Source: Eubacteriales Family XIII. Incertae Sedis bacterium
Lineage (GTDB): Bacteria; Bacillota; Clostridia; Peptostreptococcales; Anaerovoracaceae
Assembly: GCA_031260885.1 (NCBI GenBank)
Contig: JAISKP010000101.1
Span: 1 to 34,319 of the forward strand
Length of the DNA stretch: 34,319 bases
Direction: 5' to 3'
Numbering within the stretch: the first letter of the stretch is position 1; each line of letters opens with the position of its first letter. Below, piece by piece: positions 4,761-27,867 of this stretch. The position numbers and the translations under genes were made by a program. Below the pieces are notes generated by a model. The model was not told the origin of the DNA. It was given only the letters and a program-made list of their open reading frames with translations, and did no database searches.

Positions 4761-6036
4761 ATTTCTGACGAATGATCAAAATATCGACCGGAACAGCTAT
4801 CTGTGGAATATGACGGGTACCATGATTTCGTCCTTTCAGTCCACCATTCTGCTGATCGTCGTGACGCACACGCTGTCGCTTGAATACGCGGGCATCTTTT
4901 CGTTTGCTTTTGCGAACGCCTACATGTTTCAGGCCGTCGGTCTGTTCGGGATGCGCAACTATCAGACGTCGGATGTAAAACACAAATACAGCTTCTATGA
5001 TTATTGCGGCAGCCGGCTCATTACGGCGCTCTTAATGGTCGCGCTGTCTGTCGGATTTGTCCTCTATCTTTCCGTTACAAATGCATACACGGTTGAAAAG
5101 AGCCTGATCGTCTTTCTCATGTGTATCCTGCGTCTCATTGACGCCATAGAAGACGTCGTGCACGGCTTTTATCAGCAAAACGGCAGACTCGATGTCGCCG
5201 GGCGGGCACTGACGATTCGGGTCATCGTAACCTTTCTCTGTTTCATGGTTCTGATCATCGTCCTGAAAAATCTGCTCGCCGCCCTGATCGCGACGATCAT
5301 CCTCGGCATGCTCGTTTTCGCATTGGTCACAAAATCCGCCATCGGAGATTTTCTCACGGACGCGGAAAGAAAACACGACCGGAAGCATGTATTCAGCCTG
5401 TTGAAGACGACGATCCCCGTATTTTTGGGACTGTTTTTGTCCATCTATCTGAGCAACGCGCCGAAGTATGCGATCGACGGGCTGATGGACAACGAGGCGC
5501 AGGCCTACTACAATTTTCTGTCCACGCCGGCCTATATCATCACGCTGCTCAACAGTTTCATTTACAATCCGATCATCTACAAGGCATCCAACGCATGGCA
5601 CGACGGAGAAAGTCGCGTGTTTTACAAGATCATTTTCCGTCAGTTTTTCTTCATCGTGCTCATTACGGCGGGTTGCGTCGGTATCGGTTATTTGATCGGC
5701 ATTCCCGTGCTGACCTTTATCTTCGGTACGAACCTCGCCGCATATAAAACGGAATTTATTCTGCTGCTGGTCGGCGGCGGGTTTTGGGCGCTGACAGGAT
5801 TTCTTGTCATCGTCATCACGATCATCCGCTTTCAGAAGAGCATTGGCATCGGCTATATTCTCGTGTCAGCAGCGGCATTCTTTACGGTGCCGATGATGGT
5901 GGAAACGACCGGGCTGACGGGCGCTGCGCATGTCTATCTCATGATTACCGCGCTCTTAAGCGTCGTGTTCGCGATCTTTCTGATCATCGGTCTTCGGCGA
6001 AAAGGAAAGAAGAATCGGGAGGAATTGGCTCTATGA
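4750..6036 (+). CDS. polysaccharide flippase, Wzx/MATE-like oligosaccharide translocase
   Basis: 428 aa, ~12 TM-type hydrophobic segments; N-terminal NSYLWNMTGTMISSFQSTILLIVVTHTLSLEYAGIFSFAFANAYMFQAVGLFGMRNYQTSD typical of polysaccharide biosynthesis proteins. Confidence 0.85.
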   Translation: MLHRFLTNDQNIDRNSYLWNMTGTMISSFQSTILLIVVTHTLSLEYAGIFSFAFANAYMFQAVGLFGMRNYQTSDVKHKYSFYDYCGSRLITALLMVALSVGFVLYLSVTNAYTVEKSLIVFLMCILRLIDAIEDVVHGFYQQNGRLDVAGRALTIRVIVTFLCFMVLIIVLKNLLAALIATIILGMLVFALVTKSAIGDFLTDAERKHDRKHVFSLLKTTIPVFLGLFLSIYLSNAPKYAIDGLMDNEAQAYYNFLSTPAYIITLLNSFIYNPIIYKASNAWHDGESRVFYKIIFRQFFFIVLITAGCVGIGYLIGIPVLTFIFGTNLAAYKTEFILLLVGGGFWALTGFLVIVITIIRFQKSIGIGYILVSAAAFFTVPMMVETTGLTGAAHVYLMITALLSVVFAIFLIIGLRRKGKKNREELAL

Positions 6037-7883
6037 TTGCAGCGCTCTTTTATATCATCACCTATTTTGCACTGACGTGCGGCGTCTATCTGTACGCAAA
6101 GTCGGAACAAAAACAGAATGCGTTCCTTTGGATTCCCGTCAGCCTGCTGCTCTGTGAATGCTATTCGGCGGTGATCGCGGGACTGCTCTCATTGGTTCAT
6201 ATCCCTGTGGATTTAGTCTCCATCGGCATCGCATATCTGATTGCGGCGGCACTTCTTTTTTTCCGGATCCGGAGGCAGAGAAAAAGGCAACAGTTTGAGC
6301 TGCGCATTGCGGACATCGCGTTCGGTCTGATCCTGCTTCTTTTGATCGCGGTCATGGGTTATATGCGCTTCTGGACCGCAAATCCGATCATCTTTGCGAC
6401 GATCGACCCGGCGGAACGCTTCGGAAACGCGATGAACATCGCCGTTTTAAAGAGCGTTATCACGCATTTTCCAAATCTGTATTTCATCCAGCTTTCGGGT
6501 TCGCTCTTCATCCAGGCGATGAATCCGTTTTTCCCCGGCGTACTGCCGTTCCGGTTTTTTGAGATCAAAGATCTGTTGAACCTGTGGTTTACGGGTGCGC
6601 TGTTTTACGGTGCCGCGGGCTGCTATATGAAGAACCGGTTTTCGAAGATCATCGCCTTCATTCTGACGTTTGCCTTCGTGGCGGGCTTTCCGTGGAACAA
6701 TCAGCTCTGGGGATTTGTCTATCCCGGCGTCGCGCTGAATCTGATCATACTCGTACTGATCGGTGCCACGCTGCTGCTGCAGGACAGGCTTGACCGGATG
6801 CCGGCTTACCTCATCATTGCGCTCGGTTGCTTTGGGGTCGGCGTCTGCTACACGCTCTATGTGCCGCCGCTCTATATCGCCGCCTTCCTCGCCATTGCGC
6901 TCTATTTGTACAGGAAACGTAAAGCCGGGCGCAATAACGCGCTCAATGCGGAAGGGTTTACCGGGCACAACGCCGACCATCGTCAGACCGCGCGTCCGCT
7001 CCGCACGCTGTCCTTCTGGGGGCATCTGGCCGTCACCGAGATTTCGGTCTTTATCATTCCGACCGTGTGGACGGCTGTCAACACGTTGGCGCTCGATGCC
7101 GGCGGCGAATCCAATGTCGGCAATTCCATTACGGCGGAAGGGGCCATCTACCGAAATCTGTTCACGGACTTCATTCCATATGTCCCGTTCGCATTCTACT
7201 TTCTTTACCGTGCGTGCAGGAAAAAAGAGTTCGATTTTAGCTCGATCTTTTCCATTGTCTTTGCCATCTTTCAGATCGGTCTTTTGGTCATGATGCTTCA
7301 GGGGAAGATCAGCACTTACTATTATTATAAAGTGTACTTCGTTACATGGTTCATCTTTCTGTTCCTCGCGTGCCTTGCCGTCGATCAGCTGAGCAAACAC
7401 GTCTCGGCAAAGCGGCTCATCGCGGTATATCTGATCTGCTGGATGCTCGTGGGCGGTGTCGGGATCTTGGGACTCGACAGCAAGCTGTCCGCACGCTATC
7501 CGCTGGCAAATCCGCAGCCCGGCGCGGACGTTTCATTCCGTATTTACACGAACAACCTCTTCTATTTCCCGCCGCCCGGCGTGAACAACATCATCAATAT
7601 CAATTGGGATTTCATCAACCTGTGCACGGAGGCGCAGCGGCTTTCCGCGGAGGCGGGCGAAACCGCGCGCATCGAAATGGTCACGGACAGCTTTCAGAAT
7701 TCGTTCTGGAAGGATGCGCTCACGAGTCAGCTCCTGATCTTCCACGAAGGGATGCCACAGGAGAAAGAAGGTCTCTGGATCGTCCTACCGGACAATGCCT
7801 ATTACGAATTTGACAAAGAATATCTTGACAGTTTGCCGAAATTGTACGAAAATGAACGCGGATTCGTAGTGAAGCCCGTATAG
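6033..7883 (+). CDS. large polytopic membrane protein, GT-C-like or Wzy-like, with C-terminal soluble tail
   Basis: ATGA overlap with preceding stop at 6033 (gaggaattggctctATGATT); 616 aa, many TM segments; the ORF extension upstream to 5784 overlaps the flippase out of frame and is unlikely. Confidence 0.75.
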   Translation: MIAALFYIITYFALTCGVYLYAKSEQKQNAFLWIPVSLLLCECYSAVIAGLLSLVHIPVDLVSIGIAYLIAAALLFFRIRRQRKRQQFELRIADIAFGLILLLLIAVMGYMRFWTANPIIFATIDPAERFGNAMNIAVLKSVITHFPNLYFIQLSGSLFIQAMNPFFPGVLPFRFFEIKDLLNLWFTGALFYGAAGCYMKNRFSKIIAFILTFAFVAGFPWNNQLWGFVYPGVALNLIILVLIGATLLLQDRLDRMPAYLIIALGCFGVGVCYTLYVPPLYIAAFLAIALYLYRKRKAGRNNALNAEGFTGHNADHRQTARPLRTLSFWGHLAVTEISVFIIPTVWTAVNTLALDAGGESNVGNSITAEGAIYRNLFTDFIPYVPFAFYFLYRACRKKEFDFSSIFSIVFAIFQIGLLVMMLQGKISTYYYYKVYFVTWFIFLFLACLAVDQLSKHVSAKRLIAVYLICWMLVGGVGILGLDSKLSARYPLANPQPGADVSFRIYTNNLFYFPPPGVNNIININWDFINLCTEAQRLSAEAGETARIEMVTDSFQNSFWKDALTSQLLIFHEGMPQEKEGLWIVLPDNAYYEFDKEYLDSLPKLYENERGFVVKPV

Positions 7884-7998: not shown

Positions 7999-9450
7999 AT
8001 GGTTTTTTCTTCGGCAATCTTTATTTTTTGTTTTCTCCCGCTCTGTCTGCTCGGCTACTACTTGGTGCCGAAGCGATTCAGAAATTACTTCTTCCTTTTC
8101 ATGTCTATTCTTTTCTATGCATACGGAGAGCCGAAATTTGTCTTCGTCATGCTCCTTTCGGTTCTTGCAAACTGGGTCTTCGGTTTACTCGCGAATCGCT
8201 ACAGGACACAAAAGACCGCCATCCGATGGGTGCTTGCCGCTATGGCGGTATTTAACGTCGGAATTCTGTTTGCTTATAAATACCTGAATTTTGTGATCGA
8301 GAACGTCAATACGGTCTTTCATATGCAGCTTCCGAAAACGGAACTTCTGCTCCCGATCGGTCTTTCGTTTGTGACGTTTCAGGCGATGTCCTACGTGATC
8401 GATATCTATCGCGGAAGTGCGCAGTCCCAAAAAAGTCTTCCGAATACCGCGCTGTACATCCTGATGTTTCCGCCGCTCATCGCAGGTCCGATCGTGCGCT
8501 ATGAAACGGTCGCGGATCAGATCACGAACCGCACGACAAGGGCAGATGATTTTTCCAGAGGTGTCAGGCGTTTTATCTTTGGATTTGCAAAGAAAGCCAT
8601 CGTCGCAAACAGTGTTGCGATCACCGCAGATGAGATCTTCAGCAATTCGAATTTCTGGTCGCTAACGGTGCTGACTGCCTGGATCGGCATCCTCTGTTAC
8701 ACACTGCAGATTTACTTCGATTTTTCCGGATACTCCGATATGGCGATCGGTCTGGGACTGATGTTCGGCTTTCATTTTCGTGAAAATTTTAACTATCCCT
8801 ATATTTCGAAGACCGTCACGGAGTTTTGGCGGCGCTGGCATATATCGTTGAGCAGTTGGTTCCGCGACTACGTCTACTTCCCGTTGGGCGGTTCCCGCGT
8901 CCGCACAAAAGGGCGGCTCGTCTTCAACCTCTTCGTCGTATGGATGTTGACGGGCATCTGGCATGGTGCAAGTTGGAATTTTGTCCTCTGGGGATTCTTC
9001 TATTTCGTGTTGCTTACCTTTGAGAAGCTCTTCGGCATCCCGGGGAAAGTGGCAGGCAATCCGGTTCTTGCAATTCTATACCGCCTCTTTACGATTTTGT
9101 GTTTCACGGTCGGTTGGGTCATCTTCCGGGCACCGGACATCGGCAGTGCGTTGAAATACACGCAGATCTTATTTCTGGGCAGATACGGGTTCAATAAGGT
9201 GATGTTGCTCGACGGAGATGCGCTGTACTATCTGGCTCAGAACTGGGTGATCCTTCTGATCGCAATCATCGGCTGTACGCCTGCGGTGAAGTGGGCATAT
9301 CACCGGGTGAAGGCAGGTCTTCGTGAAAACAACGGCGGGCTTCTTGCCGTGCAGATCAGCGAGAACGTGATCTGCCTTGTATTGTTCGTGATTGCGCTCG
9401 CGTTTATGGCGAGCGGTCAGTATAATCCGTTTATCTATTTTAATTTTTGA
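7999..9450 (+). CDS. MBOAT family O-acyltransferase (AlgI/DltB-like), copy 1
   Basis: MVFSSAIFIFCFLPLCLLGYYLVPKRFRNYFFLFMSILFYAYGEPKFVF; LQIYFDFSGYSDMAIGLGLMFGF; EFWRRWHISLSSWFRDYVYFPLGGSR; catalytic-His motif GIWHGASWNF. Confidence 0.95.
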   Translation: MVFSSAIFIFCFLPLCLLGYYLVPKRFRNYFFLFMSILFYAYGEPKFVFVMLLSVLANWVFGLLANRYRTQKTAIRWVLAAMAVFNVGILFAYKYLNFVIENVNTVFHMQLPKTELLLPIGLSFVTFQAMSYVIDIYRGSAQSQKSLPNTALYILMFPPLIAGPIVRYETVADQITNRTTRADDFSRGVRRFIFGFAKKAIVANSVAITADEIFSNSNFWSLTVLTAWIGILCYTLQIYFDFSGYSDMAIGLGLMFGFHFRENFNYPYISKTVTEFWRRWHISLSSWFRDYVYFPLGGSRVRTKGRLVFNLFVVWMLTGIWHGASWNFVLWGFFYFVLLTFEKLFGIPGKVAGNPVLAILYRLFTILCFTVGWVIFRAPDIGSALKYTQILFLGRYGFNKVMLLDGDALYYLAQNWVILLIAIIGCTPAVKWAYHRVKAGLRENNGGLLAVQISENVICLVLFVIALAFMASGQYNPFIYFNF

Positions 9451-10676
9451 ATTTGGAATTTGCATCGGAGTCATCGAACGGTATATCGAAGGTGGACAAG
9501 AACAAAAAAATTTGGAAAACAATAAATAAAGCCTTCATCATTGGATTCCTGCTGATGATCGTGCTTCCGGTCGCCTTTTTCAATATGGAAACAGGTGCGG
9601 TTTCTGAGAATGAGAAGCGGCTGTTTGCAAATCTCCCGAGCGTGCATGCCACGGACGGAAGCTTTAATGAGAATGTCCGAGCGGAATTTTCAGACTGGCT
9701 CGGTGACCGGATCGGATTCAGACAATCGTTGGTGCGGACGGCATCGCACATAAAGCTGTCCGTGTTGCACGAGTCCCCGTCGTCGATCATCCATGTCGGG
9801 CAGAACGGCTGGTATTACTATGCGGAGCAGGGGAACATTCTGATTGCAAAGGGGCAGTATGATTTGACGGAGCCAATGCTTCAGAGAATCGCAGCGAATC
9901 AGCAGGCCATCAGCGATTATTACAAGCAAAACGACGTGGATTATTACCTCATGATCACGCCGGCGAAGACAAGTATCTATCCGGAGTTCGTGGGCGTCGG
10001 AAGCTATACGCTCCGAGAGACGCCGGTCGATGTCGTGGAAAGGTATCTGGCTGAAAATACGGATGTGCAGATGATCAATCCGAAAATGACCCTGATCGAA
10101 AATAAGGATAAGGGGCAGCTGTTCCTGAAACAGGATTTTCACTGGACAAATCTCGGCGCTTATTACGCATACCGGGCGACGATCGAGCATTGGAACAGAA
10201 CCGGTCTCCTGCACGATGTGCCGATTGAGGTGCATGTGGAAGATATCGATTATGGGACGGGAGAGGTGTCCGGTTATTTCGGCGGGGCGGATTTTCTGAA
10301 TGCGGAAATCGCGCCATCCGTCCGGTGGCGTGAAAACGCGGTGCAGCTTGAGGACGGAATCTATTTTAAAGAAATCGAAGCCATCTGCGCCGGAGCTGAA
10401 TCGGGTGAACTGATCGCGTCGCTTGCAGTCTATGAAAATCCAAAGGTTCCGTCCGGACGGTTGTTGATCTATGGAGATTCACAGATCATGCCGGAAAGAA
10501 AACTGCCGCGCTGCCTGTCGGAACACTTTTCCATTGTCGTGAACACCGGGATCCGACCCGAGTTCAATCCCGAACTGGAGGCCTTCGTGCAGCCGGACGT
10601 GGTGATCTACAGCTGCAGCGAGCGGAACATCAACGCCAGCCTCCATGGAATCGATTTCCTGTCGAAGATTCAGTAG
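9447..10676 (+). CDS. SGNH/DHHW-type polysaccharide acylation accessory protein (AlgJ/AlgX-like), copy 1
   Basis: Single N-terminal TM; ENEKRLFANLPS; YYLMITPAKTSIYPE; KQDFHWTNLGAYYAY (DxHW motif); LIYGDSQ; TTG start at 9447 overlapping the MBOAT stop, alternative GTG at 9492. Confidence 0.85.
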   Translation: MNLEFASESSNGISKVDKNKKIWKTINKAFIIGFLLMIVLPVAFFNMETGAVSENEKRLFANLPSVHATDGSFNENVRAEFSDWLGDRIGFRQSLVRTASHIKLSVLHESPSSIIHVGQNGWYYYAEQGNILIAKGQYDLTEPMLQRIAANQQAISDYYKQNDVDYYLMITPAKTSIYPEFVGVGSYTLRETPVDVVERYLAENTDVQMINPKMTLIENKDKGQLFLKQDFHWTNLGAYYAYRATIEHWNRTGLLHDVPIEVHVEDIDYGTGEVSGYFGGADFLNAEIAPSVRWRENAVQLEDGIYFKEIEAICAGAESGELIASLAVYENPKVPSGRLLIYGDSQIMPERKLPRCLSEHFSIVVNTGIRPEFNPELEAFVQPDVVIYSCSERNINASLHGIDFLSKIQ

Positions 10677-11884
10677 GGAAACAAATTTTCTCTTTCAGAA
10701 CTGTCCTGTTTCAAGGATTGTATATGTGTCAAGACAAGACCGATTAGCGTGAGAACTACTCCGAGTGACAGAATCGCAAATGACCAATGTCTCGTATCGG
10801 CGCCGGCGGACGCGATATAGAAAGTGGATATTGTCACAACTTGCATCAAATATATGAACCATGCCGTGCCGGGCACGACGAACGCCATGGCGAGCAGTAC
10901 GATTTCCCCCTGATAGTAGTATCGACCATGCATCTGAGGCAAAACAAACGGAAGAACAATCAAACAAAACGCCGCGAGCATCAAAATGGTTTCCCTACTG
11001 AACTTCTTTGCCTTAAATCCATATACAACAAGCGAGACGGCAAAGGCAAATCCGATTCCCACGCCGACAAGGCGAAATTGATCAAAATTATTCGGAAACC
11101 ACTGCCAGAGATTTGACATCCACCAAACCATGTTTTTCACACCAAGCATGGGTCCCGTTCCCCTTACCAGAAAACCGATAATGCGTCCGGGCGTATCGCC
11201 TATAAGTAGGGTCGGTGAAAGTAAAACAAGGCAAGAAACGATAGAGAGCAGCGGTCCCTTGATGAATCCCTTGCGGCGGTTTATCGCGACCGCGAGCAAA
11301 AAAGGTGCAAGAAAGATCGCCTGCATCTTCACCGCGAATGAAATTCCGAAAATAATCCAGGACAGATTGTTGCGGTCTTTCAGACAAAAGTAGATCGACC
11401 AAATCGCAAGCGCGCCAATAATGTCGTCATTCTGACCCCATGCTGCGCTGTTGACCACCACAGTGGGTAAAATCAGGGCGATGGTAGCTGCACAATACTT
11501 TGTATTTCCATCAGGCTTAAAGATCTCGACTGTTTTCAGTACGCCGCCCGCTAACAGCAGGTCAAAGATCACCGCGAGTCCTTTGATCACGAGCATGTTT
11601 GAGGGCGTCAAACGGCTGACTAGCCACATCAGCAGCAGGTATGGTGAATTGTAGGGCGAAAACTCTTGGAGAATGGATTCGGGACCAAACACGCGAAGAT
11701 ATGTCAGCCATGGCTCATAGAATTGAGTATAGTCCGGAAAAACAACAGGGAATAGGTGTATGCGACACGCCACCGCGATCGTCAGAAAAACGACAGGGAA
11801 ATACAATTTTTCGTTGAGCTTCAATATTGACAATTTTTGATTCAATCCAAGAATCCCTCTTCCCATATGAACAATGGAATGCAA
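10670..11884 (-). CDS. polytopic membrane glycosyltransferase, GT-C-like, paralog of 969..2132
   Basis: Aligns nearly end to end with 969..2132 (KLNEKLYFPVVFLTIAVACRIHLFPVVFPDYTQFYEPWLTYLRVFGPESILQEFSPYNSPYLLL...), roughly 80-85% aa identity by eye; paralog-equivalent start would be a TTG at 11824. Confidence 0.75.
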   Translation of the reverse strand: MHSIVHMGRGILGLNQKLSILKLNEKLYFPVVFLTIAVACRIHLFPVVFPDYTQFYEPWLTYLRVFGPESILQEFSPYNSPYLLLMWLVSRLTPSNMLVIKGLAVIFDLLLAGGVLKTVEIFKPDGNTKYCAATIALILPTVVVNSAAWGQNDDIIGALAIWSIYFCLKDRNNLSWIIFGISFAVKMQAIFLAPFLLAVAINRRKGFIKGPLLSIVSCLVLLSPTLLIGDTPGRIIGFLVRGTGPMLGVKNMVWWMSNLWQWFPNNFDQFRLVGVGIGFAFAVSLVVYGFKAKKFSRETILMLAAFCLIVLPFVLPQMHGRYYYQGEIVLLAMAFVVPGTAWFIYLMQVVTISTFYIASAGADTRHWSFAILSLGVVLTLIGLVLTHIQSLKQDSSERENLFPY

Positions 11885-11906: not shown

Positions 11907-12158
11907 TTATGATTTGGAAGATAGGTGCAGAAGAATGTTGTTCAGCAAGTCTCCGACATTCAAAAAACCTTGAATCTCGCCCATTGTAAATTTGATTCCA
12001 AATTGATCTTCGATCTCTGAAATGATCTGGAGATGCATGAGCGAATCCCATCCGTCTATATCTTTCGCTGTCGTTGTCTCGAAAACATCAAGGGTTTCAT
12101 TGTCGAATATATCCCTGAGAATTTCTGTGAGTTTTTCAAATGCAGCTTCCCTTTCCAT
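11907..12158 (-). CDS. stand-alone acyl carrier protein
   Basis: 83 aa; TTTAKDIDGWDSLMHLQIISEIEDQFGIKFTMGEIQGFLNVGDLLNNI; DSL phosphopantetheine-attachment motif in GWDSLMHL. Confidence 0.92.
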   Translation of the reverse strand: MEREAAFEKLTEILRDIFDNETLDVFETTTAKDIDGWDSLMHLQIISEIEDQFGIKFTMGEIQGFLNVGDLLNNILLHLSSKS

Positions 12159-12336
12159 ATCAATCCTCCTGTTTCATAAATGCTCTTCTCGATTCATGGA
12201 ATCTCAAGAATTAAATGATATCATACCTTCAAACGTGCGTAAAGCCAAGCGATCTTGTCGGACTTTAAAAACACACCTCTTTATGGTAAGATTAAGCGTC
12301 GATAAAATTCAGGACTTACAGGAACAAGGAATTAAC

Positions 12337-13176
12337 ATGAAAACAGTATTGGTAACGGGATCATCAGGCTATATCGGGAAGCATGTCGTCGCAGCGCTTC
12401 TTGCAAAAGATCACCTCGTAATTGCAAATGATCTCGTACCGAGCAACACAGATGCCCACGTCACAAATTCAACAGAAGATATTTTTTCCGGAGAAAAGGA
12501 CATCTATGAACGACTTGGAAAGCCTGATATTGTGATTCATTTAGCTTGGGAAGCGGGGTTTATCCACAACTCGCCATTGCACTTACTCAGACTGTCCGAT
12601 CATTTTCGCTTTCTGACAGATATGGCAGCAGGCGGCTGCAAGAACATCGCCGTCATGGGTTCCATGCATGAGGTTGGTTTCTACGAGGGTGCCATCACGG
12701 AAGATACGCCCTGTAATCCGCTTTCTCTTTATGGCATCGCAAAGAATGCACTCCGCCAAGCCCTGCTTCTTGAATCAAAACAAAATGATTTCAACCTCTA
12801 TTGGCTGCGCGGATACTATATCTACGGAGACGACAGGCGTGGTAGTTCGATCTTTTCAAAGATCGCGCGCGCTGCGGATGCCGGCGAAAAGGAGTTTCCA
12901 TTTACGACAGGGAAAAACAAATATGACTTCATTTCTATTGACGGACTTGCCACGCAGATCGTCGCAGCATCGACACAAACGAAGGTGTCTGGTGTTATCA
13001 ACGTTTGTTCGGGCAAGGCAGTCAGCCTCGCTGAACAAGTTGAAGCCTTCATAAAAGAAAATGACTTCGATATTACGCTGAAATATGGCGCTTTCCCTGA
13101 TCGCGAATATGATTCGGGAGCGATTTGGGGAGATGACACAAAGATTCAGACCATCCTTTTAAACGAAAAGTTCTGA
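12337..13176 (+). CDS. NAD(P)-dependent sugar-nucleotide reductase/epimerase, Tll/RmlD-like SDR
   Basis: MKTVLVTGSSGYIGKHVVAALLAKDH (Rossmann GxxGxxG); GSMHEVGFYEGAITEDTPCNPLSLYGIAKNALRQALL (YxxxK); 'ggaacaaggaattaacATG'; upstream extension to 12022 overlaps the ACP gene and is unlikely. Confidence 0.85.
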   Translation: MKTVLVTGSSGYIGKHVVAALLAKDHLVIANDLVPSNTDAHVTNSTEDIFSGEKDIYERLGKPDIVIHLAWEAGFIHNSPLHLLRLSDHFRFLTDMAAGGCKNIAVMGSMHEVGFYEGAITEDTPCNPLSLYGIAKNALRQALLLESKQNDFNLYWLRGYYIYGDDRRGSSIFSKIARAADAGEKEFPFTTGKNKYDFISIDGLATQIVAASTQTKVSGVINVCSGKAVSLAEQVEAFIKENDFDITLKYGAFPDREYDSGAIWGDDTKIQTILLNEKF

Positions 13177-13193
13177 AAGGTACACGATAAGCA

Positions 13194-14687
13194 ATGGTAT
13201 TTTCATCTGCAGTGTTCATGTTCGTATTTTTGCCAATCTGTTTGATTGGGTATTATTTGATGCCCAAGCTCGTTGCGAAAAACATTTTTCTTCTGATTAT
13301 GTCCCTGCTCTTCTACGGTTATGGAGAACCGAAATTTCTGTACATCATGTTGCTTTCCGTACTCATCAATTGGTTGATCGGTCTTGCGATCAACCAATTC
13401 AGAACCCGAACAATTTTGCCAAAAGCACTGCTGGCGTTTATGGTTGTATACAACATCGGCATTCTGTTTGTGTATAAGTATCTGAATTCGATCATTTCGA
13501 ATGTAAATAGCATCTTTGATACAGATTGGCCTCATCCCACGCTATTCCTTCCCATTGGAATTTCCTTTTTCACCTTTCAGGCAATGTCCTATGTAATCGA
13601 TGTTTACAGAGGGGTTGCGCCGGTGCAGAAGAATTTTTTCAATACTGCACTTTATATTTGTCTGTTCCCACCTTTGATTGCGGGGCCTATTGTTCGGTAC
13701 ACTTCCATCATGGATCAGCTCACGGATCGCAAATTCCGATTTGATGATTTTTCCTGTGGCATCAAGAGGTTCATTATCGGACTATCAAAAAAACTCATCA
13801 TTGCAAATCTGATTGCAGTCGTTGTGGATCAGGCCTACAGTGCTTCCGATGTAGGCAGTCTCAGCATCTTGATGGCTTGGTTCGGTGCGTTTGCTTACCT
13901 GATTCAACTCTACTTTGACTTCTCCGGATATTCCGATATGGCGATCGGACTCAGCCGAATGTTCGGCTTTAAATTGAATGAGAATTTCAATTATCCGTAC
14001 ATATCCAAATCGATCGTTGAATATTGGAGCCGGTGGCATATTTCATTAAGTACGTGGTTTCGGGACTACCTGTATTTTCCGGTATTTCGCACACTGCAAT
14101 CCAGAAAAAATCCGTTGACAGGCAAACGCTTTTCGATTCGAACATGTGATTTCACCGCATTGTTTGTCGTTTGGATTTGTTGCGGTACCTGGCATGGTGC
14201 AGGAATAAAATATCCACTGTTTGGGCTCTATTGGTTTGTTTTCATTGTGATAGAGCGCCTTGTCGAAGAACACCTCAAGAAGAGGAGAAAGCAATTAAAA
14301 CTGCAGAAAAAAAAATCGAGCGCCGGTATCCGCGCATTGCAACATGTCTATACAATATTCGTGGTTCTGATCGGGCAGGTTATATTCCGCGCAAACGGTC
14401 TTCGGGAGGCGGTGCGATATCTGCTCGTCATGTTCGGCGTTTCCGGCTCTGCGACTGCAGTTTTCGATGAAAAGACACTTTTTCTCATTCAGGACAACTG
14501 GGTGTTGCTGATCATCGCTGTGATCGCATGTTGCCCTGTACTGAAAGTGCTTGAGAAACGATTTACGGGAAACGCCGCGATCGCGCTTGAACTCGTAGGA
14601 AATCTACTATTAATGATCTTATTCCTTGTATGCGTATCTTACACTGTCAACAACAGCTATAACCCATTTATTTACTTCAATTTCTAA
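13194..14687 (+). CDS. MBOAT family O-acyltransferase (AlgI/DltB-like), copy 2
   Basis: MVFSSAVFMFVFLPICLIGYYLMPKLVAKNIFLLIMSLLFYGYGEPKFLY; LYFDFSGYSDMAIGLSRMFGF; EYWSRWHISLSTWFRDYLYFP; GTWHGAGIKYPLFGLYW. Confidence 0.95.
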   Translation: MVFSSAVFMFVFLPICLIGYYLMPKLVAKNIFLLIMSLLFYGYGEPKFLYIMLLSVLINWLIGLAINQFRTRTILPKALLAFMVVYNIGILFVYKYLNSIISNVNSIFDTDWPHPTLFLPIGISFFTFQAMSYVIDVYRGVAPVQKNFFNTALYICLFPPLIAGPIVRYTSIMDQLTDRKFRFDDFSCGIKRFIIGLSKKLIIANLIAVVVDQAYSASDVGSLSILMAWFGAFAYLIQLYFDFSGYSDMAIGLSRMFGFKLNENFNYPYISKSIVEYWSRWHISLSTWFRDYLYFPVFRTLQSRKNPLTGKRFSIRTCDFTALFVVWICCGTWHGAGIKYPLFGLYWFVFIVIERLVEEHLKKRRKQLKLQKKKSSAGIRALQHVYTIFVVLIGQVIFRANGLREAVRYLLVMFGVSGSATAVFDEKTLFLIQDNWVLLIIAVIACCPVLKVLEKRFTGNAAIALELVGNLLLMILFLVCVSYTVNNSYNPFIYFNF

Positions 14688-14700
14688 TGGAAAACGAGCG

Positions 14701-15891
14701 ATGAAGAAATTTCACAAGCCTAAAAATTTAATGCTAATGATTTGGTTTCTGGCTGTTATCCTATTCTTATCAGCTACGAATGCATCCTGGTTTACTTCCA
14801 TCGTAAAACCCGAGCTACAGGGAATCAACCTCGAAAACGCAAAGAGCCGCACCGATAGTTGGGATATGAAATTTCGCGCGTATTTCCATTACAAAGAAAA
14901 GCTCCTTGACATCTGTGGACTTTCATACCTGATTTTAAACAAAAAAACTGCTGACAACTTCCAGTTTGTAAAGGATCAATATAATACGATGCAGTTTACC
15001 GAACCAAACTGGAATGCGGCGCACGCAATCGAAAGCATCACGGTGCTGAATGATCGTTTCGCCGAAAGAGGAATCCCCTTGGTTTATGCTGTGTTTCCGC
15101 CAAGATTTAACGCAGATGACTTCCCTTTGTCTCATGAAGTTGATTTCAATGGTCAACGTGATGAGAACATTATGAACGAGACGGAAAAAGCCGGTGTCAA
15201 TGTACTGGATATCGGGCGTATTTTGGGAGTTTCGGAGCAAATTGTGTTCAAAACAGATCTTCACATGAAGACTGAAACAGAGTTTCGTGCGGCAAAGGTT
15301 CTTTCATCCAAGTTGATGGATATGGGGTTGGATTTTAAAAATTTCGATGAAATCTATGATCCTGCAAATTATACGATTGTGAGCCATCCTTTCATGGGAA
15401 ATCTGTCGAGATCAACCGGGAAGTATTTCACGCTTGGGATTGATGATTTTGAAATATACTATCCGGGCTTCCCAACGAATTTCACATTAATCAATCCTTC
15501 CGCACACCTTGAAAAGCACGGAGACTTCACCAAAACACTGATGAATGGTTATGAAGATGATCTTGAGGAAAATCCGATGCCTTACTGGGTGTTAAATTAT
15601 TTGCAGTATCCCAGTCCATATTATAGGATCAGCAATCACAATATTGAGGACGGTTGTAGCTTGCTCTTCATCATGGATTCCTACACCATGCGCGCCGCTA
15701 CATTCTTGGCATTAGGCGCCAAAGAAATTACCGTTGTAGATCCAAGAGGCGAAGGTGGAAATGAGATCTTAAAAACCCTTATGGCAGAAGGGGACTTTGA
15801 TGCGGTTATTGTGACGTTTTCAGGAAGTGACCTTTATAATGCGATCGATTTCTCACAGCCAGTGCAAGCAGCACCGCAGGCAGACCAATGA
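14701..15891 (+). CDS. SGNH-like polysaccharide acylation accessory protein (AlgJ/AlgX/DltD-like), copy 2, divergent
   Basis: 396 aa from ATG 14701; N-terminal TM anchor; QIVFKTDLHMKTETEFRAAKVL in place of the DHHW-type motif; LLFIMDSYTMRAATFLAL candidate nucleophile; immediately follows MBOAT copy 2. Confidence 0.72.
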   Translation: MKKFHKPKNLMLMIWFLAVILFLSATNASWFTSIVKPELQGINLENAKSRTDSWDMKFRAYFHYKEKLLDICGLSYLILNKKTADNFQFVKDQYNTMQFTEPNWNAAHAIESITVLNDRFAERGIPLVYAVFPPRFNADDFPLSHEVDFNGQRDENIMNETEKAGVNVLDIGRILGVSEQIVFKTDLHMKTETEFRAAKVLSSKLMDMGLDFKNFDEIYDPANYTIVSHPFMGNLSRSTGKYFTLGIDDFEIYYPGFPTNFTLINPSAHLEKHGDFTKTLMNGYEDDLEENPMPYWVLNYLQYPSPYYRISNHNIEDGCSLLFIMDSYTMRAATFLALGAKEITVVDPRGEGGNEILKTLMAEGDFDAVIVTFSGSDLYNAIDFSQPVQAAPQADQ

Positions 15892-15925
15892 GCTGTTCAA
15901 ATGCAGCATCCCAGTCCATTGAAGA

Positions 15926-17650
15926 TCAAGCATCCTCGCAAATAAATGTTTTATTTGGCACAAACGCATCCGTTCGAACAGCATAACGTCCTTCGCTCAA
16001 ATGTTCAAAGCCAAGTACATCATAGATATGTTCAACCATCTTGTTTTTTTGTGTCGGTAGATACGCCCCTATTATTCTTTTCCCGCCTGCGTTTCTTGCA
16101 GTTTCAACCGCGGTATTTATGATGAATTCCTCCATGCCACGCTTGAGTACCCTGCAGCTCATAAACCAGTTCTCTATATAAAATGTATCTTCATCCTCGC
16201 GACGCAGAATGAGCACTGAAATCAGACCGTAGTCTCCGAACTTATCCCTTAGCGAAAACGTCAACGGAAAATATTTCGGGTCAGCCGCAATCCGTTCCGC
16301 ATCTGCGGCGGTGTACCGCACCGTGCATAGATTGAATTGATTTGACCGCTGTGAAAGCTGTGCGGCGCGCGGGATGTTGAATTCGGTGAAGCCCGTGGTC
16401 GTTGCAATCATTTCAAGACTTTGCAGATATTCATCAATGGATGCATGTTCCCGCATATGCACGGTGCGATCCGCTTCCGCCCGATACTGTTCCGTACGCG
16501 CACCGTCGGCATCCGTGTAAGCCGGCGTCTCAAAAAGATTTAGTGATGTTAGAAATGTAACATAGTCCGAAGGATCCTCGGGAAGTTCGGGAACCGTAAT
16601 CTCCGGGATCATGCTGCGCACGAGGTCACGCTCTACAGGGTTGTCATCTATAAATACAAGAGAATCCATTCCGATATTCAGCGTTTCCTGAATCATTCGG
16701 ATATTACCGGCTTTATCCTGCCAATTTGCGACAAACATGGATATATCCGTGAGCCTCAACACCATATCGGCATGCTTTTCAAATGGCTCTTTCGCTGCAG
16801 CCTCTTCATTTTTACTGCAAACGGTCAGCAATATCCCGCGTTCTTTTAACTTTTTCAGCCAACACTGAAATTCTGAAAACGCATGCCCGCGACCGAGTTC
16901 GCCGAGCTCTATCGCATTCAATCCGTCATCGCCGATCACGCCGCCCCACAATGTGTTGTCGAGATCGAGCACAACGCACTTCTTTGTCTTTCCTCGAATG
17001 GCCTCAATCGTATCAAGCGTCAGCGCAGCCACGTCCGGTAAAGCGTCAAGCCGGATCGCAAGTTTGGCAGCGTAGTACATTTTCTCATCAAACAAATGTG
17101 ATCTGCCGTACGCATTCTGTATGTATGCGAGGTCGATAAGATGGATATCCTTCCGCCCTTCTGCAGTCCTCATAAGTCCCATATTGAGGCTTCGCATCTG
17201 GTAGATAAACGATTCCTTGATTTGCACGCCGTGGTTGCCGAAAATCCGATCATCTCTCTCCGCAGGCAGATACTGCAAAATCTTACAGCCGGATCTTGTT
17301 GCGATACTGTCCCAATAGCCCTGAATGCGGGACAGGGTATCCGCTGCGAATGATCCGCATTCGTTCAGCGGTCTATCACAATAAGACTCGTAAAGTTTTT
17401 GAGCCGAAATAAATATTAAAATATAGTCCGGACGAAAGGCGTAAACCTCGGAAGACGGATCGTACAGCTGATACTCGATCTGATTGTAATCAGTGTTGAA
17501 CACATTCAGATTGATATCCCGATAAGCGCCAAATGCTTGCAATGCCATCGCCAGCATTTGTGTCGCGCTATCCCCTAAAACCGCAAGACGAATCTCGGGA
17601 AACCCACTGACATCCTTCTTTAATTGTTTCTTTAATTCGGAAAATTTCAT
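15926..17650 (-). CDS. FkbH-like HAD-IIIC family protein with N-terminal GDSL/SGNH-like and C-terminal GNAT-like domains
   Basis: IRLAVLGDSATQMLAMAL (N-term); KKCVVLDLDNTLWGGVIGDDG...LTVCSKNEEAAA...MVLRLTDISMFVANWQDKAGNIRMIQETLNIGMDSLVFIDDNPVERDLVR (HAD/FkbH core); RSNQFNLCTVRYT...LRDKFGDYGLISVLILR (GNAT-like). Start trimmed from 17695 to ATG at 17650. Confidence 0.92.
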   Translation of the reverse strand: MKFSELKKQLKKDVSGFPEIRLAVLGDSATQMLAMALQAFGAYRDINLNVFNTDYNQIEYQLYDPSSEVYAFRPDYILIFISAQKLYESYCDRPLNECGSFAADTLSRIQGYWDSIATRSGCKILQYLPAERDDRIFGNHGVQIKESFIYQMRSLNMGLMRTAEGRKDIHLIDLAYIQNAYGRSHLFDEKMYYAAKLAIRLDALPDVAALTLDTIEAIRGKTKKCVVLDLDNTLWGGVIGDDGLNAIELGELGRGHAFSEFQCWLKKLKERGILLTVCSKNEEAAAKEPFEKHADMVLRLTDISMFVANWQDKAGNIRMIQETLNIGMDSLVFIDDNPVERDLVRSMIPEITVPELPEDPSDYVTFLTSLNLFETPAYTDADGARTEQYRAEADRTVHMREHASIDEYLQSLEMIATTTGFTEFNIPRAAQLSQRSNQFNLCTVRYTAADAERIAADPKYFPLTFSLRDKFGDYGLISVLILRREDEDTFYIENWFMSCRVLKRGMEEFIINTAVETARNAGGKRIIGAYLPTQKNKMVEHIYDVLGFEHLSEGRYAVRTDAFVPNKTFICEDA

Positions 17651-23494: not shown

Positions 23495-24391
23495 CTACCG
23501 CTGACACCAATCTGCAAACGGGTGATAGGTATATGCGCCGATCGCATTTTCCAGTTTCCCCGCATCAAAGACCGTATCTCCGGATTCGATCTTGAGCGCC
23601 GTTTCCGGCCAAGACACAAACCGGACCTGTACGCCGTACCGACGCGCAATCAAATCGGCCATTTCCAACAGACTGTAATCCTCGCCGCCGATGTTGAACA
23701 CATCGTTCTCGCACGCTGCGGACAGAGAAGCCTTGATTAATATTTCACAAAGATCGCCCATATCGGTAAGCGTGCGCCGGATCTTTCCGTCACCGTACAG
23801 TGTAATGTCTTCGGCATTCGTCGCTTTTTTCAACATGAATTCTGCGGTTCCGTAGGACGACGCGCCGGCAATCAAGGTTCCGTACGGAATGCAGATCCGG
23901 AAAATGCAGTATGAAATCCCATACACGCGATGGTACATTTCCAGATACTGTTCGCATGCAAATTTATTGATTGCATAGACCGTCTTAAATTCTTTCTCCG
24001 CATCCTCCCTCAGTGCCCCAGGTCTTCCTTTATAGACAAGCCGCGTAGAAGGAAAGATAATTTTTGCCCGTGAATTGTGTTTCCGGTAAGCACGCAGCAC
24101 CCAGAGCAACGCACGTTCATTGATGTCGATGAACAAATCGAATTCATCAAACCCGTTTTCGCTTCCGGTCTTTCCCACAAACATGAAGAGCAGATCACAG
24201 TCGAAATCGATCAGGTCCGTCGACGCTTCGCTGAAGAGATCCACGCTCGTATAGTTCGCAAGCCCATCAGCCTGTGTTTCTGCTTTATCGTAGAGCGCAA
24301 TTTCATAGCTTTCAGGATCGCGCATCAACACATGGATCAGATTTCGTGCAATATAGCTGTTTGCGCCGATTATAGATATTTTCTTCTTCAT
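23495..24391 (-). CDS. NAD-dependent epimerase/dehydratase (SDR), candidate NDP-sugar 4-ketoreductase
   Basis: MKKKISIIGANSYIARNLIHVL (Rossmann); IFPSTRLVYKGRPG...YAINKFACEQYLEMY (YxxxK); last gene of the dideoxysugar operon; start trimmed to ATG at 24391. Confidence 0.85.
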   Translation of the reverse strand: MKKKISIIGANSYIARNLIHVLMRDPESYEIALYDKAETQADGLANYTSVDLFSEASTDLIDFDCDLLFMFVGKTGSENGFDEFDLFIDINERALLWVLRAYRKHNSRAKIIFPSTRLVYKGRPGALREDAEKEFKTVYAINKFACEQYLEMYHRVYGISYCIFRICIPYGTLIAGASSYGTAEFMLKKATNAEDITLYGDGKIRRTLTDMGDLCEILIKASLSAACENDVFNIGGEDYSLLEMADLIARRYGVQVRFVSWPETALKIESGDTVFDAGKLENAIGAYTYHPFADWCQR

Positions 24392-25419
24392 TACGCTCCT
24401 TTTGCCAATTTTAGAAATCCATCCACCATTTCGGATTGCCGCAATAGAATCCCATAGTTCTCTTCTCTGACGTCCGGTTCGTGAATGCACTGCACAAATC
24501 GCTTCAGCGATTTTGCAAACGCATCATCCGACGGAAGTTCCCGCGTTTCCGTGGCATCGCCGTGCGTGATTTCGACGGTCGGCACAAAACCTGCCGGTGC
24601 CGTCAGAACGCGCCCGCTGCGAAGAGATCCCAAGCTCCCCCAGACTTCCAAATCGCACTTATAGCTGTTATCCATACCAAAAGCGATCTGCGCCGTGACG
24701 CCCCGATCATTCACTAGCGTCGCCGACCCGTAGACATCCACCTCGAACGCGTCCGTATGATTTGACTGCGCGCACAGGATCCGCGCGGTATCGCCGAGCA
24801 GCATTCCGGCATATTTGATCGTATAGCCGCCGCAATCAAACAGCGCGCCGCCGCCGAGCGCTTTATCATATCTGAAATCATTCCCGGCCCTCTTCGGAAA
24901 TCCGAAAGAGATTCGGTAGAGACGCACGTCACCGATCTCGCCGTCCGCAATCAAATCCTGAATTGCATTCAACTGATCGTGAAATGCAAACATGTAATTC
25001 TCATGAAGCGCGAGCGCCCCGGAAGCGGCCAGCTCCGTCAGCGCTTTTGTGTCCGATGCCGCCAACGTAGACGGTTTTTCGATCAAAACATGTTTCCCAT
25101 TTGACAACGCTTCCTTTGCCCACCGGAAATGCAACGCCGGCGGAAGCGGGATATACAAGGCGTCTATTTCGTTCGAAGCTGCAATCGCGCCGTACCCTTC
25201 GAAGAGCTTCCCGCCGTAAGTATCAATAAAAACTTGTGCCTTTCGATGCTCCTCTTCCAACGTCGCATTTACGATCGCCGGCGCAGGCGGATTCTGTCCG
25301 AACCGCTCCTCTGCGGTGCAGACCGCAAGCCCGGCAAATTCCAATTCTTCTATCTGCTGCAGTGCCGGCATAAAACGCCGCAGGGCTATTTCCGAAGGAC
25401 ATATTACACCGATTCTCAT
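24391..25419 (-). CDS. Gfo/Idh/MocA family oxidoreductase, candidate NDP-hexose 3-ketoreductase
   Basis: MRIGVICPSEIALRRFMPALQQIEELEFAGLAVC...IDALYIPLPPALHFRWAKEALSNGKHVLIEKPST...GGGALFDCGGYTIKYAGMLLG: EKP motif; AGGA upstream of ATG 25419; TAATG overlap with next gene. Confidence 0.92.
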   Translation of the reverse strand: MRIGVICPSEIALRRFMPALQQIEELEFAGLAVCTAEERFGQNPPAPAIVNATLEEEHRKAQVFIDTYGGKLFEGYGAIAASNEIDALYIPLPPALHFRWAKEALSNGKHVLIEKPSTLAASDTKALTELAASGALALHENYMFAFHDQLNAIQDLIADGEIGDVRLYRISFGFPKRAGNDFRYDKALGGGALFDCGGYTIKYAGMLLGDTARILCAQSNHTDAFEVDVYGSATLVNDRGVTAQIAFGMDNSYKCDLEVWGSLGSLRSGRVLTAPAGFVPTVEITHGDATETRELPSDDAFAKSLKRFVQCIHEPDVREENYGILLRQSEMVDGFLKLAKGA

Positions 25420-25499
25420 GATCCTATGTTCCCTTTCCATATCGTCCGGCTTTTCGCGCATCCTGCGATTCAGTCCCCGGGGCGGATCTCCGCAGGACG

Positions 25500-26891
25500 T
25501 TATATCGGCAGCAGCGACAGCAGGTTTCTCAGTTGAATATTGAGGCAATTGTTCACCTGCATCAGATCGCTCAGCCCACTGTAGTCCACCCAAAAATAAT
25601 TCTCCGGAAGCTCGGTCAGCGCATCTTCAGGTATTTTCATAATGACATTCCGGTTTTGCTCGTGATAAAATCGCCCGCCTTCTTCCGAAAGAACGACGTC
25701 CAAGATGATTCCCGCTTTGTTTGCCGATTGCGTTTCAAATACATCTTTCACCGCATCCTTAAAATTCAAATATTGATTTGCTTCGAGCTGTATGCTGGGT
25801 CCGATCTCTATTTTATCAAAGGTGCCGATTTCGGAGCGCAGTGAAACCAAGTATTTTGTAACGCCGCCCACATCTTTGAGCAGCAACACAAAGGTTGCCG
25901 CGCCGATTGCCTTGAAGAGGGGCTGCGTCCAGTGCTGTACCTCTCTGCCCGAGATGGAAATATCATAATAACGAACCATGAAATTCGCGGACTTCCTGCA
26001 GGTAATTCCGTATTCGTTTACTTCCCAGTCAACGAGTTGGTATAGCGGGATCAGGGTGTTGTGAATATTGTGAAACATCTTGTAATTGTTGATCGGCTGA
26101 TACAGCTTCGTAATGGTATCTGCCGGGTCTGTTTCGAAAATGGATTTATAAAATCCGAAATCGTGGAAATTGTTTTTCACAGTTTTCAGTTCTTCCGGTG
26201 TCAAACGGTAGGTGCTCAGCGGAATGCCGGAGAGCACCGTTCTCGTATCCATATTGACCAGATTGTCAATGCCCATCAGTGTCTTGATCTGCCCCAAAGT
26301 CATCCATTTAAAATTCGGATAAACTTCAATCTCATCTTCCACTTCCAAGATCATATTGCGGTTTCTCTTTTTATAGAAACGCGCCGCCTGTTCCGATTGA
26401 ATCTGATCATAGATCACATGGTACTGCTTTGAGTTTTCGAAAAGTTCAAAGTAGGTCGGAAGATCCCCGCCGTGGGCGCGCGTGAAATTGCTCTTAGTTG
26501 CCTGAATGGTCGGTGACAGTTGCACGTGATTGACGTTTCCGGGTTCGATTTTAGCCTGCATGAGGAAATTCAAAACACCGTCGATCTCTTTGCAGAGGAT
26601 GCCCAGATATCCGATCTCCGGTTGAAGGATGACCGGTTGCTCCGAAACGAGTGCGCCGTCTTCAAAACGCCGGATTCCTTTTATTGAGAAAAAACTGCGC
26701 TTCCGGTTCAGGATTTCACCGTTGTAATCATCATAAAACCAGAACGAACTGTCGCTAATACCGCTTTCTTGTATCACTACGGTGATACTTTTATTCAGAT
26801 TCTCTATCCAATCCAATATCTGATCGGTAGAGTTTACATTTCCTTCCGTGTTCTTCCATGATTCCAGAACAGCAAAGATCCATTTATTCAT
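25500..26891 (-). CDS. NDP-hexose 2,3-dehydratase family protein (EvaA/TylX3-like)
   Basis: 463 aa with two internally homologous halves (SEQAARFYKKRNRNMILEV...FKWMTLGQIKTLMGIDNLVNMDTRTVLSGIP vs SEEGGRFYHEQNRNVIMKI...YFWVDYSGLSDLMQVNNCLNIQLRNLLSLLP), characteristic of this family. Confidence 0.9.
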   Translation of the reverse strand: MNKWIFAVLESWKNTEGNVNSTDQILDWIENLNKSITVVIQESGISDSSFWFYDDYNGEILNRKRSFFSIKGIRRFEDGALVSEQPVILQPEIGYLGILCKEIDGVLNFLMQAKIEPGNVNHVQLSPTIQATKSNFTRAHGGDLPTYFELFENSKQYHVIYDQIQSEQAARFYKKRNRNMILEVEDEIEVYPNFKWMTLGQIKTLMGIDNLVNMDTRTVLSGIPLSTYRLTPEELKTVKNNFHDFGFYKSIFETDPADTITKLYQPINNYKMFHNIHNTLIPLYQLVDWEVNEYGITCRKSANFMVRYYDISISGREVQHWTQPLFKAIGAATFVLLLKDVGGVTKYLVSLRSEIGTFDKIEIGPSIQLEANQYLNFKDAVKDVFETQSANKAGIILDVVLSEEGGRFYHEQNRNVIMKIPEDALTELPENYFWVDYSGLSDLMQVNNCLNIQLRNLLSLLPI

Positions 26892-27867
26892 TTATTGATT
26901 CCCCTGCGTTCGGCTGCACGTTCCGCATATCTTTAACGACAAACTGTGGAGATTCATTCATCGATATGTAAATTCTTCCGACATATTCGCCGAGCATACC
27001 GAGCAGGATCATGATGACGCCGCCGATGATCAGGATGGCGGACATCATGGAACTGTAGCCCGCAGCGGTCTCCGGATAGATGATCTTATATACGATCGTA
27101 AAGATTGTGAATAAAAACCCGATCACGGAAACGACCAGACCAAAACCGGTAGCAATGCGCAGGGGTTTTACGGAAAAAGCCGTGAAGCCATTCATCCATA
27201 GGCTGATGAGTTTTAGCAGGGTATAGCCGGAGGATCCATCCGTCCGGCGTCTATGCTGGATCGTTACGTTCGCGATGCTGTTTGTCGTCCGTATGATCAA
27301 TCCCCAGATATAGGGATAGGGATTTGTGTATCTGCAGATTTCATCGATCACATATTTCCGTGCAACAAAGAAACTTGTCAGGCGCACATGCTTGGGTTTT
27401 CCGACAATGGATTCCATCATGAAGTTGTTTGCCTTGGATCCCAATTTTCGAAACCCGTTGTCTTTTCTGTCTTCGTATTGTCCGTAAACGACGTCGAAAC
27501 CTTCATGCAGTTTGTCGAGCAAAGTGAAGATTTCTTCCGCCGGCGTCTGTCCATCATCGTCCATCGTGAAGACATAGTCGCCGGAACACCTGTGGTATCC
27601 TGCCATGAGCGCGGCATGCTGGCCGAAATTCTTCGCCAAGCTTAACGCGATGACATCCGTTCTCACCGCGCACATCGCATCGATCACGGACCAGACATCG
27701 TCCGGCGAATTGTCGTTGACCAAAATGATCTCATAGATATATTTGGATGCATATTCGGACGCCTTCAGAACCGCGTCAATCTGCGAAACAACGGTCTCAA
27801 TTGTTTTCTCCGACCTGTAACAGGGTATGACAAATGAAAGTTTTTCCACGTTATTACCGATCCCCAT
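26884..27867 (-). CDS. undecaprenyl-phosphate glycosyltransferase-like GT2 (ArnC/GtrB-like) with two C-terminal TM helices
   Basis: KLSFVIPCYRSEKTIETVVSQID...EIILVNDNSPDDVWSVI...ALSLAKNFGQHAALMAGYHRCSGDYVFTMDDDGQTPAEEI; C-terminal LRIATGFGLVVSVIGFLFTIFTIVYKII and AILIIGGVIMILLGMLGEYVGRIYISMNESP. Confidence 0.93.
   Translation of the reverse strand: MGIGNNVEKLSFVIPCYRSEKTIETVVSQIDAVLKASEYASKYIYEIILVNDNSPDDVWSVIDAMCAVRTDVIALSLAKNFGQHAALMAGYHRCSGDYVFTMDDDGQTPAEEIFTLLDKLHEGFDVVYGQYEDRKDNGFRKLGSKANNFMMESIVGKPKHVRLTSFFVARKYVIDEICRYTNPYPYIWGLIIRTTNSIANVTIQHRRRTDGSSGYTLLKLISLWMNGFTAFSVKPLRIATGFGLVVSVIGFLFTIFTIVYKIIYPETAAGYSSMMSAILIIGGVIMILLGMLGEYVGRIYISMNESPQFVVKDMRNVQPNAGESINE

Follow-up and report, generated by a model that had tools for sequence, protein, structure and literature searches.

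The D-alanylation of teichoic acids by the Dlt system relies on a loading enzyme (DltA), a stand-alone carrier protein (DltC), a membrane-bound O-acyltransferase (MBOAT; DltB) and an SGNH protein (DltD). Here we describe a module of the same make-up, with an FkbH protein as predicted loading enzyme, in a stretch of 34,319 nucleotides (contig JAISKP010000101.1; hereafter the window) from an Eubacteriales Family XIII. Incertae Sedis bacterium (class Clostridia; GCA_031260885.1, a metagenome assembly of 2.06 Mb that is 79% complete). DltA is an AMP-forming ligase, whereas FkbH is a HAD-IIIC phosphatase with 1,3-bisphosphoglycerate as the predicted acyl source. The predicted acyl group is glyceryl instead of D-alanyl, and the module lies within a polysaccharide locus. 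The acyl carrier protein (ACP) of the window is a carrier with a DSL serine and stands alone as does DltC, but it is no DltC equivalog by NCBIfam. The tyrosine of the FXYXXF motif is located inside the MBOAT, as in PatA, while Dlt has it in the microprotein DltX.

The O-acetylation pairs AlgI/AlgX, PatA/PatB and WssH/I are of the same sequence and fold type as the MBOAT and SGNH proteins of the module (MBOAT2 and SGNH2), including the FXYXXF and WHG motifs. In MBOAT-SGNH pairs the acyl group moves via a conserved His to the tyrosine of the C-terminal FXYXXF motif and from there to the SGNH serine (PMC12148441). However, the O-acetylation pairs use acetyl-CoA, as shown for PatA, and have no dedicated ACP or loader, while ACP and FkbH are conserved partners in the system described here. 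FkbH and a stand-alone ACP are also shared with the glycerate genes of tetronate and methoxymalonyl-ACP pathways, and for homologues the formation of glyceryl-ACP from 1,3-bisphosphoglycerate by these two proteins is known or proposed (PMC7489565). In contrast to these pathways, the glyceryl group is predicted to end up on an exported glycan, and the window has no recognised polyketide synthase, FabH-like condensing enzyme or homologue of FkbG, FkbI or FkbK. As a chemical precedent, native gellan gum is a bacterial exopolysaccharide with L-glyceryl and acetyl esters (Kuo et al. 1986, as cited in PMC9104527 and PMC4432689); reports on the enzymes responsible for its glycerylation were not found.

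In the open-access literature we found no account of an MBOAT-SGNH pair supplied by FkbH, subscription papers and preprints being outside the search, so that a prior description is possible. The open-access literature also yielded no prior description of FkbH in connection with polysaccharide or with Sinorhizobium. Papers on cyanobacterial peptides were rejected as a precedent, since there FkbH loads glycerate inside a nonribosomal peptide synthetase and an unrelated MBOAT acylates the sugar. The parts belong to known families and their logic is that of Dlt, while the FkbH-fed version of carrier-protein-dependent glycan acylation is probably new.

The four proteins of the window module

ACP, MBOAT, SGNH and FkbH genes had been named in a preliminary description of this DNA, and all four were confirmed by family-profile matches. 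The ACP (11907-12158, minus strand, 83 aa; PF00550, 28.5 bits) is a stand-alone protein and the predicted carrier of a C3 acyl group, with its phosphopantetheine serine S39 within G-W-D-S39-L (codon 12044-12042). The HAD-IIIC type FkbH (15926-17650, minus strand, 574 aa; PF21211 FkbH_N, 202.9 bits; TIGR01686 FkbH, 313.5 bits) starts at the ATG at 17650, with an in-frame GTG at 17695 as an alternative possibility, and has a relative of solved structure in 3slr (390 bits). FkbH_N, the HAD-IIIC domain and a C-terminal domain with DxDxT and the conserved Cys motif are all present. The motifs DxDxTxW and MSCR are both intact, as they are in 111-112 of the 112 FkbH proteins compared. By analogy with its homologues, the window FkbH is predicted to dephosphorylate 1,3-bisphosphoglycerate and to load the glyceryl group onto the ACP.

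MBOAT2 (13194-14687, plus strand, 497 aa; PF03062, 73 bits) is of AlgI type, has the catalytic WHG at 333-335 (His334) and ends in F-I-Y494-F-N-F, which represents the FXYXXF acyl-tyrosine motif. It matches the DltB structures 6bug and 8jem at E 4e-26 and scores 171 bits with the DltB model of NCBIfam, whose equivalog cut-off is 375. We predict that MBOAT2 carries the acyl group across the membrane, and dependence on the ACP is likely. SGNH2 (14701-15891, plus strand, 396 aa; PF16822 ALGX, 30 bits), a membrane-anchored SGNH/AlgX-like acyltransferase, retains the conserved residues D186, H188 and S327 and is predicted to transfer the acyl group onto the polysaccharide. Searches of the SGNH proteins by sequence against the PDB gave nothing useful, while fold comparison gave matches: the predicted SGNH2 model, of low-to-moderate confidence (mean pLDDT 57), matches the structures of PatB1, DHHW, AlgX and AlgJ with probability 1.00.

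Conservation of the operon and relation to Dlt

FkbH is rare in the window's own family (9 of 200 genomes). One of the loci from this family, L023 (L numbers are labels of the compared loci), contains a tight stand-alone operon FkbH-ACP-MBOAT-SGNH with gaps of 22, 2 and 13 bases and an ACP ~53% identical to that of the window. A search of 388 Clostridia genomes with the L023 FkbH as query gave a sharply bimodal distribution of identities. Matches of 52-58%, referred to as the main clade, came from 23 genomes of many families, whereas all others did not exceed 40%. Main-clade loci with a readable context had ACP and MBOAT on the same strand in 21 of 21 cases, the MBOAT lying no further than 4.2 kb from FkbH. 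The 11 FkbH loci that belong neither to the main clade nor to the subclade of the window, which are of flagellar/legionaminic and related types, all lack an MBOAT. A further 80 loci came from a scan of named genomes, for the most part of Lachnospiraceae and Oscillospiraceae; Eisenbergiella tayi DSM 26961 and Butyrivibrio sp. XPD2002 are among the carriers. After near-identical copies and loci with short flanks had been removed, the main clade comprised 51 loci with flanks of at least 5 kb, of which 49 have an ACP and 40 an MBOAT, none of these on the opposite strand. The co-directional form of the operon is present in L023, L076 and most main-clade loci. Gene order differs from group to group, which argues for repeated association and not for one inherited block. 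The fourth protein of the main-clade operons has no Pfam match; its modelled fold resembles SGNH esterases, DltD and PatB.

The operon extends to Alphaproteobacteria. On the Rhodobacteraceae plasmid pSC52_6 the annotation reads acyl carrier protein - HAD-IIIC phosphatase - MBOAT - hypothetical - VOC protein, and the hypothetical protein carries SGNH-like motifs. On pSymB of Sinorhizobium meliloti the order is MBOAT - SGNH-like - ACP - FkbH; of the 40 Sinorhizobium records with a match, 39 show this set and one matches only in part. In S. meliloti 1021 this operon (L247) covers 631084-636341 of NC_003078.1, and the pSymB operon lies ~9-12 kb from RkpR-type capsule export genes. Its SGNH-like gene is annotated 'TonB-dependent receptor' in other strains, and RTX calcium-binding proteins are encoded nearby. 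The co-occurrence of ACP, FkbH and MBOAT in related genomes, on which the preliminary description had made its proposal depend, was found across many families of Clostridia and in Alphaproteobacteria. We consider it very likely that a general FkbH-ACP-MBOAT-SGNH acylation system exists.

In genomes without this FkbH, the closest relatives of the FkbH-linked MBOATs are mostly encoded in operons of the type AMP-ligase - ACP - MBOAT - SGNH. For one such operon tested, the DltA model gave the ligase 301 bits, which falls short of the equivalog cut-off, and the carrier matches DltC best. Phylogenetic analysis placed the main FkbH-linked MBOATs and those of the DltA-like operons in one clade (support 100/100) apart from the AlgI-type proteins, with the FkbH-linked MBOATs as a subclade (100/99) sister to those of the DltA-like operons. 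This shared clade implies a change of loader on a common chassis of carrier, MBOAT and SGNH protein, either from AMP-ligase to FkbH or in the opposite direction. Thereby the phylogeny supports the earlier idea that FkbH stands in for DltA. AlgI-type MBOATs coupled to FkbH-ACP form a separate dedicated clade (L061, L069-L073, L137 and others), and a further case is L152. L128 was rejected as an example of FkbH-ACP with a window-like AlgI-type MBOAT, since the AlgI-like protein there is the product of a second, separate MBOAT gene.

Operons of DltA-like ligase, ACP, MBOAT and SGNH protein are common in Clostridia (L226-L232, L235-L237, L240-L243). Four of these loci (L228, L236, L237, L240) have an additional PLP-dependent decarboxylase/racemase-like gene between ligase and ACP, which points to an unusual amino acid or an amine as the esterified group.

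The window copy and the predicted acyl route

The hidden Markov model of MBOAT-linked ACPs gave the window ACP 100.3 bits, the models of KSIII-type (ketoacyl synthase III) and flagellar-type ACPs 73.5 and 62.1 bits, respectively. With the MBOAT-linked model the KSIII- and flagellar-type ACPs tested reached at most 84.7 bits and the ACP of L171 90.5 bits. The window ACP thus exceeds all tested ACPs from FkbH loci without MBOAT, yet it remains below the main-clade members (at least 110.7 bits). Its best BLAST matches are ACPs of FkbH-ACP-MBOAT operons (~51%). The closest FkbH (53%) is that of L076, in an operon FkbH-ACP-MaoC-SDR-MBOAT-SGNH of one direction (SDR, short-chain dehydrogenase/reductase).

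The locus holds a second pair, MBOAT1 (7999-9450, plus strand; PF03062) and its partner SGNH1 (9447-10676, plus strand; ALGX/DHHW-like, PF16822, 44 bits), 3 kb upstream, which the preliminary description did not include. MBOAT1 is 51% identical to MBOAT2 and its sister in the tree (support 100/95), and both window MBOATs have WHG and the FIYFNF C-terminus. Six adjoining genes on two strands, GT87-ACP-epimerase-MBOAT2-SGNH2-FkbH, have a low GC content at third codon positions (GC3) of 0.43-0.54 with a mean of 0.488, compared to 0.636 for the remaining window genes. The borders of this block fall exactly at SGNH1 (0.645; MBOAT1 0.63) and at the next GT2 gene, and in a permutation test any six-gene run of such low GC3 had P = 0.0007. 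The six-gene block is of foreign composition, MBOAT1 and SGNH1 are of resident composition, and since MBOAT2 and SGNH2 lie in the shared block they are the likely partners of ACP and FkbH. MBOAT1 and SGNH1 are probably an ordinary O-acetylation pair outside the module.

The closeness of the four genes could also be coincidental crowding in a polysaccharide locus, as mixed strands and the frequency of AlgI-type MBOATs in such loci would allow. Against this stand the operons conserved across phyla, the shared composition block and the lack of an MBOAT at the 11 other FkbH loci of the class sample, and we disfavour coincidence as very improbable.

Several observations weigh against an assignment of the window copy to the system. 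Its FkbH lies outside the main clade, in a small clade with L076, L077 and L171 beside KSIII-type FkbH proteins without MBOAT. Among these three loci only L076 has an MBOAT in its context; none is encoded within 18 kb of the FkbH-ACP-MaoC-SDR set of L171. The window MBOATs are of AlgI type, and FkbH is absent from the vicinity of their closest relatives (L244, L245). As had been pointed out before, the genes are on both strands; within 5.7 kb they form three transcription units and not one co-directional operon. In the main clade itself, a nearby MBOAT is missing from 11 of the 51 loci. The window copy is a looser, rearranged AlgI-type variant of the system.

Both MBOAT/SGNH pairs of the window might instead be acetyl-CoA-dependent AlgI-type O-acetyltransferases, with FkbH and ACP feeding a cytoplasmic transferase elsewhere, e.g. 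for the N-acylation of an amino sugar as the KSIII-type FkbH loci seem to do. AlgI-type MBOATs are common (a relative of MBOAT2 at E<1e-40 in 150 of 243 Clostridia genomes), the window MBOATs cluster with non-FkbH MBOATs in the tree, and FkbH with ACP but no MBOAT occurs in polysaccharide loci of the own family and in L171. However, profile searches recognised no KSIII, PglD-type acetyltransferase, aminotransferase or other acyltransferase family in the window, and the window ACP fits the MBOAT-linked ACPs. Moreover, the foreign block with ACP and FkbH includes MBOAT2 and SGNH2 but not the first pair, and AlgI-type MBOATs have been recruited to FkbH-ACP in the L061/L069-L073/L137 clade and in L152. 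We regard O-acetylation by both pairs as unlikely and glyceryl acylation of an exported polysaccharide by the window module as probable.

In the proposed glyceryl route, FkbH would remove phosphate from 1,3-bisphosphoglycerate and attach the D-glyceryl group to the phosphopantetheine of the ACP, as judged from FkbH of polyketide pathways. At the cytoplasmic face, the MBOAT would take the glyceryl group from the ACP via its conserved His and pass it to the tyrosine of the C-terminal FXYXXF motif, in analogy to DltB/DltX and PatA. The SGNH protein would then take it from the tyrosine and esterify a hydroxyl of the exported polysaccharide, as PatB and DltD suggest. Both the acyl group (glyceryl, or lactyl where MaoC and SDR occur) and the acceptor polysaccharide are predicted by such analogies.

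Accessory genes of the FkbH loci point to variants of this route. A MaoC dehydratase is encoded in 24 and an SDR in 20 of 112 FkbH loci, and among main-clade loci with sufficient flanks, each of the nine that encode an SDR encodes a MaoC too. The two enzymes may convert glyceryl-ACP via enol-pyruvyl-ACP to lactyl-ACP, which would explain lactyl substituents. A Glyoxalase_4/VOC protein of the methylmalonyl-CoA epimerase type is present in 28 loci, including L114, L106, L113, L119, L120, L130 and L170, and could be a C2 epimerase of the acyl thioester. In several loci the VOC gene adjoins FkbH-ACP on the opposite strand. Glycolytic 1,3-bisphosphoglycerate yields D-glycerate. Since gellan bears L-glycerate (PMC9104527), a possible inversion at C2 by the VOC protein matters. 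The system might also work as proposed with a glyceryl derivative as the acyl group of the window, e.g. lactyl or an oxidised C3 acid. MaoC and SDR are frequent in FkbH loci and fit a path from glyceryl- via pyruvyl- to lactyl-ACP, and the closest relative L076 has both. But no MaoC, classical SDR reductase or VOC epimerase was recognised in the window, and although genes elsewhere in the genome could supply these functions, we consider a derivative improbable. As these genes are lacking in the window, D-glyceryl is predicted for its module.

It is an evenly balanced question whether these loci represent a widespread modular family of surface-glycan acylation pathways. Such pathways would attach C3 hydroxy acids to exported polysaccharides as esters, with 1,3-bisphosphoglycerate from glycolysis as their direct source and no need for an ATP-dependent ligase. 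In such a family FkbH would have replaced DltA on a DltB-type MBOAT and also been coupled to the AlgI type, with MaoC and SDR giving lactyl-ACP and the VOC protein perhaps inverting C2. If the proposed route is true, it is a second carrier-protein-dependent decoration of bacterial surface glycans beside D-alanylation, and it ties surface chemistry directly to glycolytic flux. Glyceryl and lactyl substituents are known from bacterial exopolysaccharides such as gellan, and the route would offer candidate enzymes for their addition as well as a function for FkbH/'HAD-IIIC' genes outside natural-product clusters. Gut and rumen Clostridia commonly carry the system, which is also present in the genetically tractable S. 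meliloti near capsule-export genes.

Surrounding locus and related gene sets

The polysaccharide cluster of the window encodes an ABC exporter, a Wzx-like flippase, RgpF, several GT2 enzymes, RmlA/B/D and an NDP-hexose 2,3-dehydratase. Between ACP and MBOAT2 lies the gene for a GalE-like NAD-dependent epimerase/dehydratase (12337-13176, plus strand; PF01370, 83 bits), also absent from the preliminary description, which probably makes the sugar to be modified. A GT87-like membrane glycosyltransferase (10670-11884, minus strand) is encoded directly downstream of ACP; its PF09594 match is weak (22.7 bits, below the cut-off).

The lack of a polyketide synthase in the window had been noted before, and ketoacyl synthase matches in the 79%-complete assembly comprise one full-length protein and two short fragments. 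With this single full-length enzyme in the genome and none in the window, a reading of FkbH and ACP as polyketide leftovers was rejected. The window also contains no AMP-binding gene, and DltA was not found in the 79%-complete genome (best TIGR01734 match 127 bits, cut-off 560), so that membership in Dlt proper was rejected as well.

The genes for the NDP-hexose 2,3-dehydratase (PF03559, 426 bits), a GFO/IDH/MocA oxidoreductase and an epimerase at 23498-28873 form a dideoxy-sugar pathway of the kind usually seen in natural-product clusters, in this case inside a polysaccharide locus. Three sizeable open reading frames of the locus (2-979, 6030-7880, 30081-30974) have no Pfam match. The two paralogous MBOAT/SGNH pairs of differing codon composition (7999-10676 and 13194-15891) share one locus, and two or more MBOATs also occur in the FkbH-ACP loci L117, L128, L153, L106 and L114.

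Other FkbH loci have neighbours of a different kind. L109, L110, L112 and L144 have a main-clade FkbH, in three cases with ACP, but no MBOAT, and adjoin phosphofructokinase-like and dnaX/recR-like genes. A split transketolase, with its N and C halves as two genes, is present in 11-13 FkbH loci, including L100, L102, L103, L111, L116, L125, L127 and L152. In the own family, L018, L019, L021 and L022 combine FkbH-ACP with a FabH-like KSIII, an SDR and a second ACP, have no MBOAT and in several cases contain PglC/PglD/DegT genes; they resemble the glycerate-utilisation set of tetronate pathways, placed in a glycan locus.

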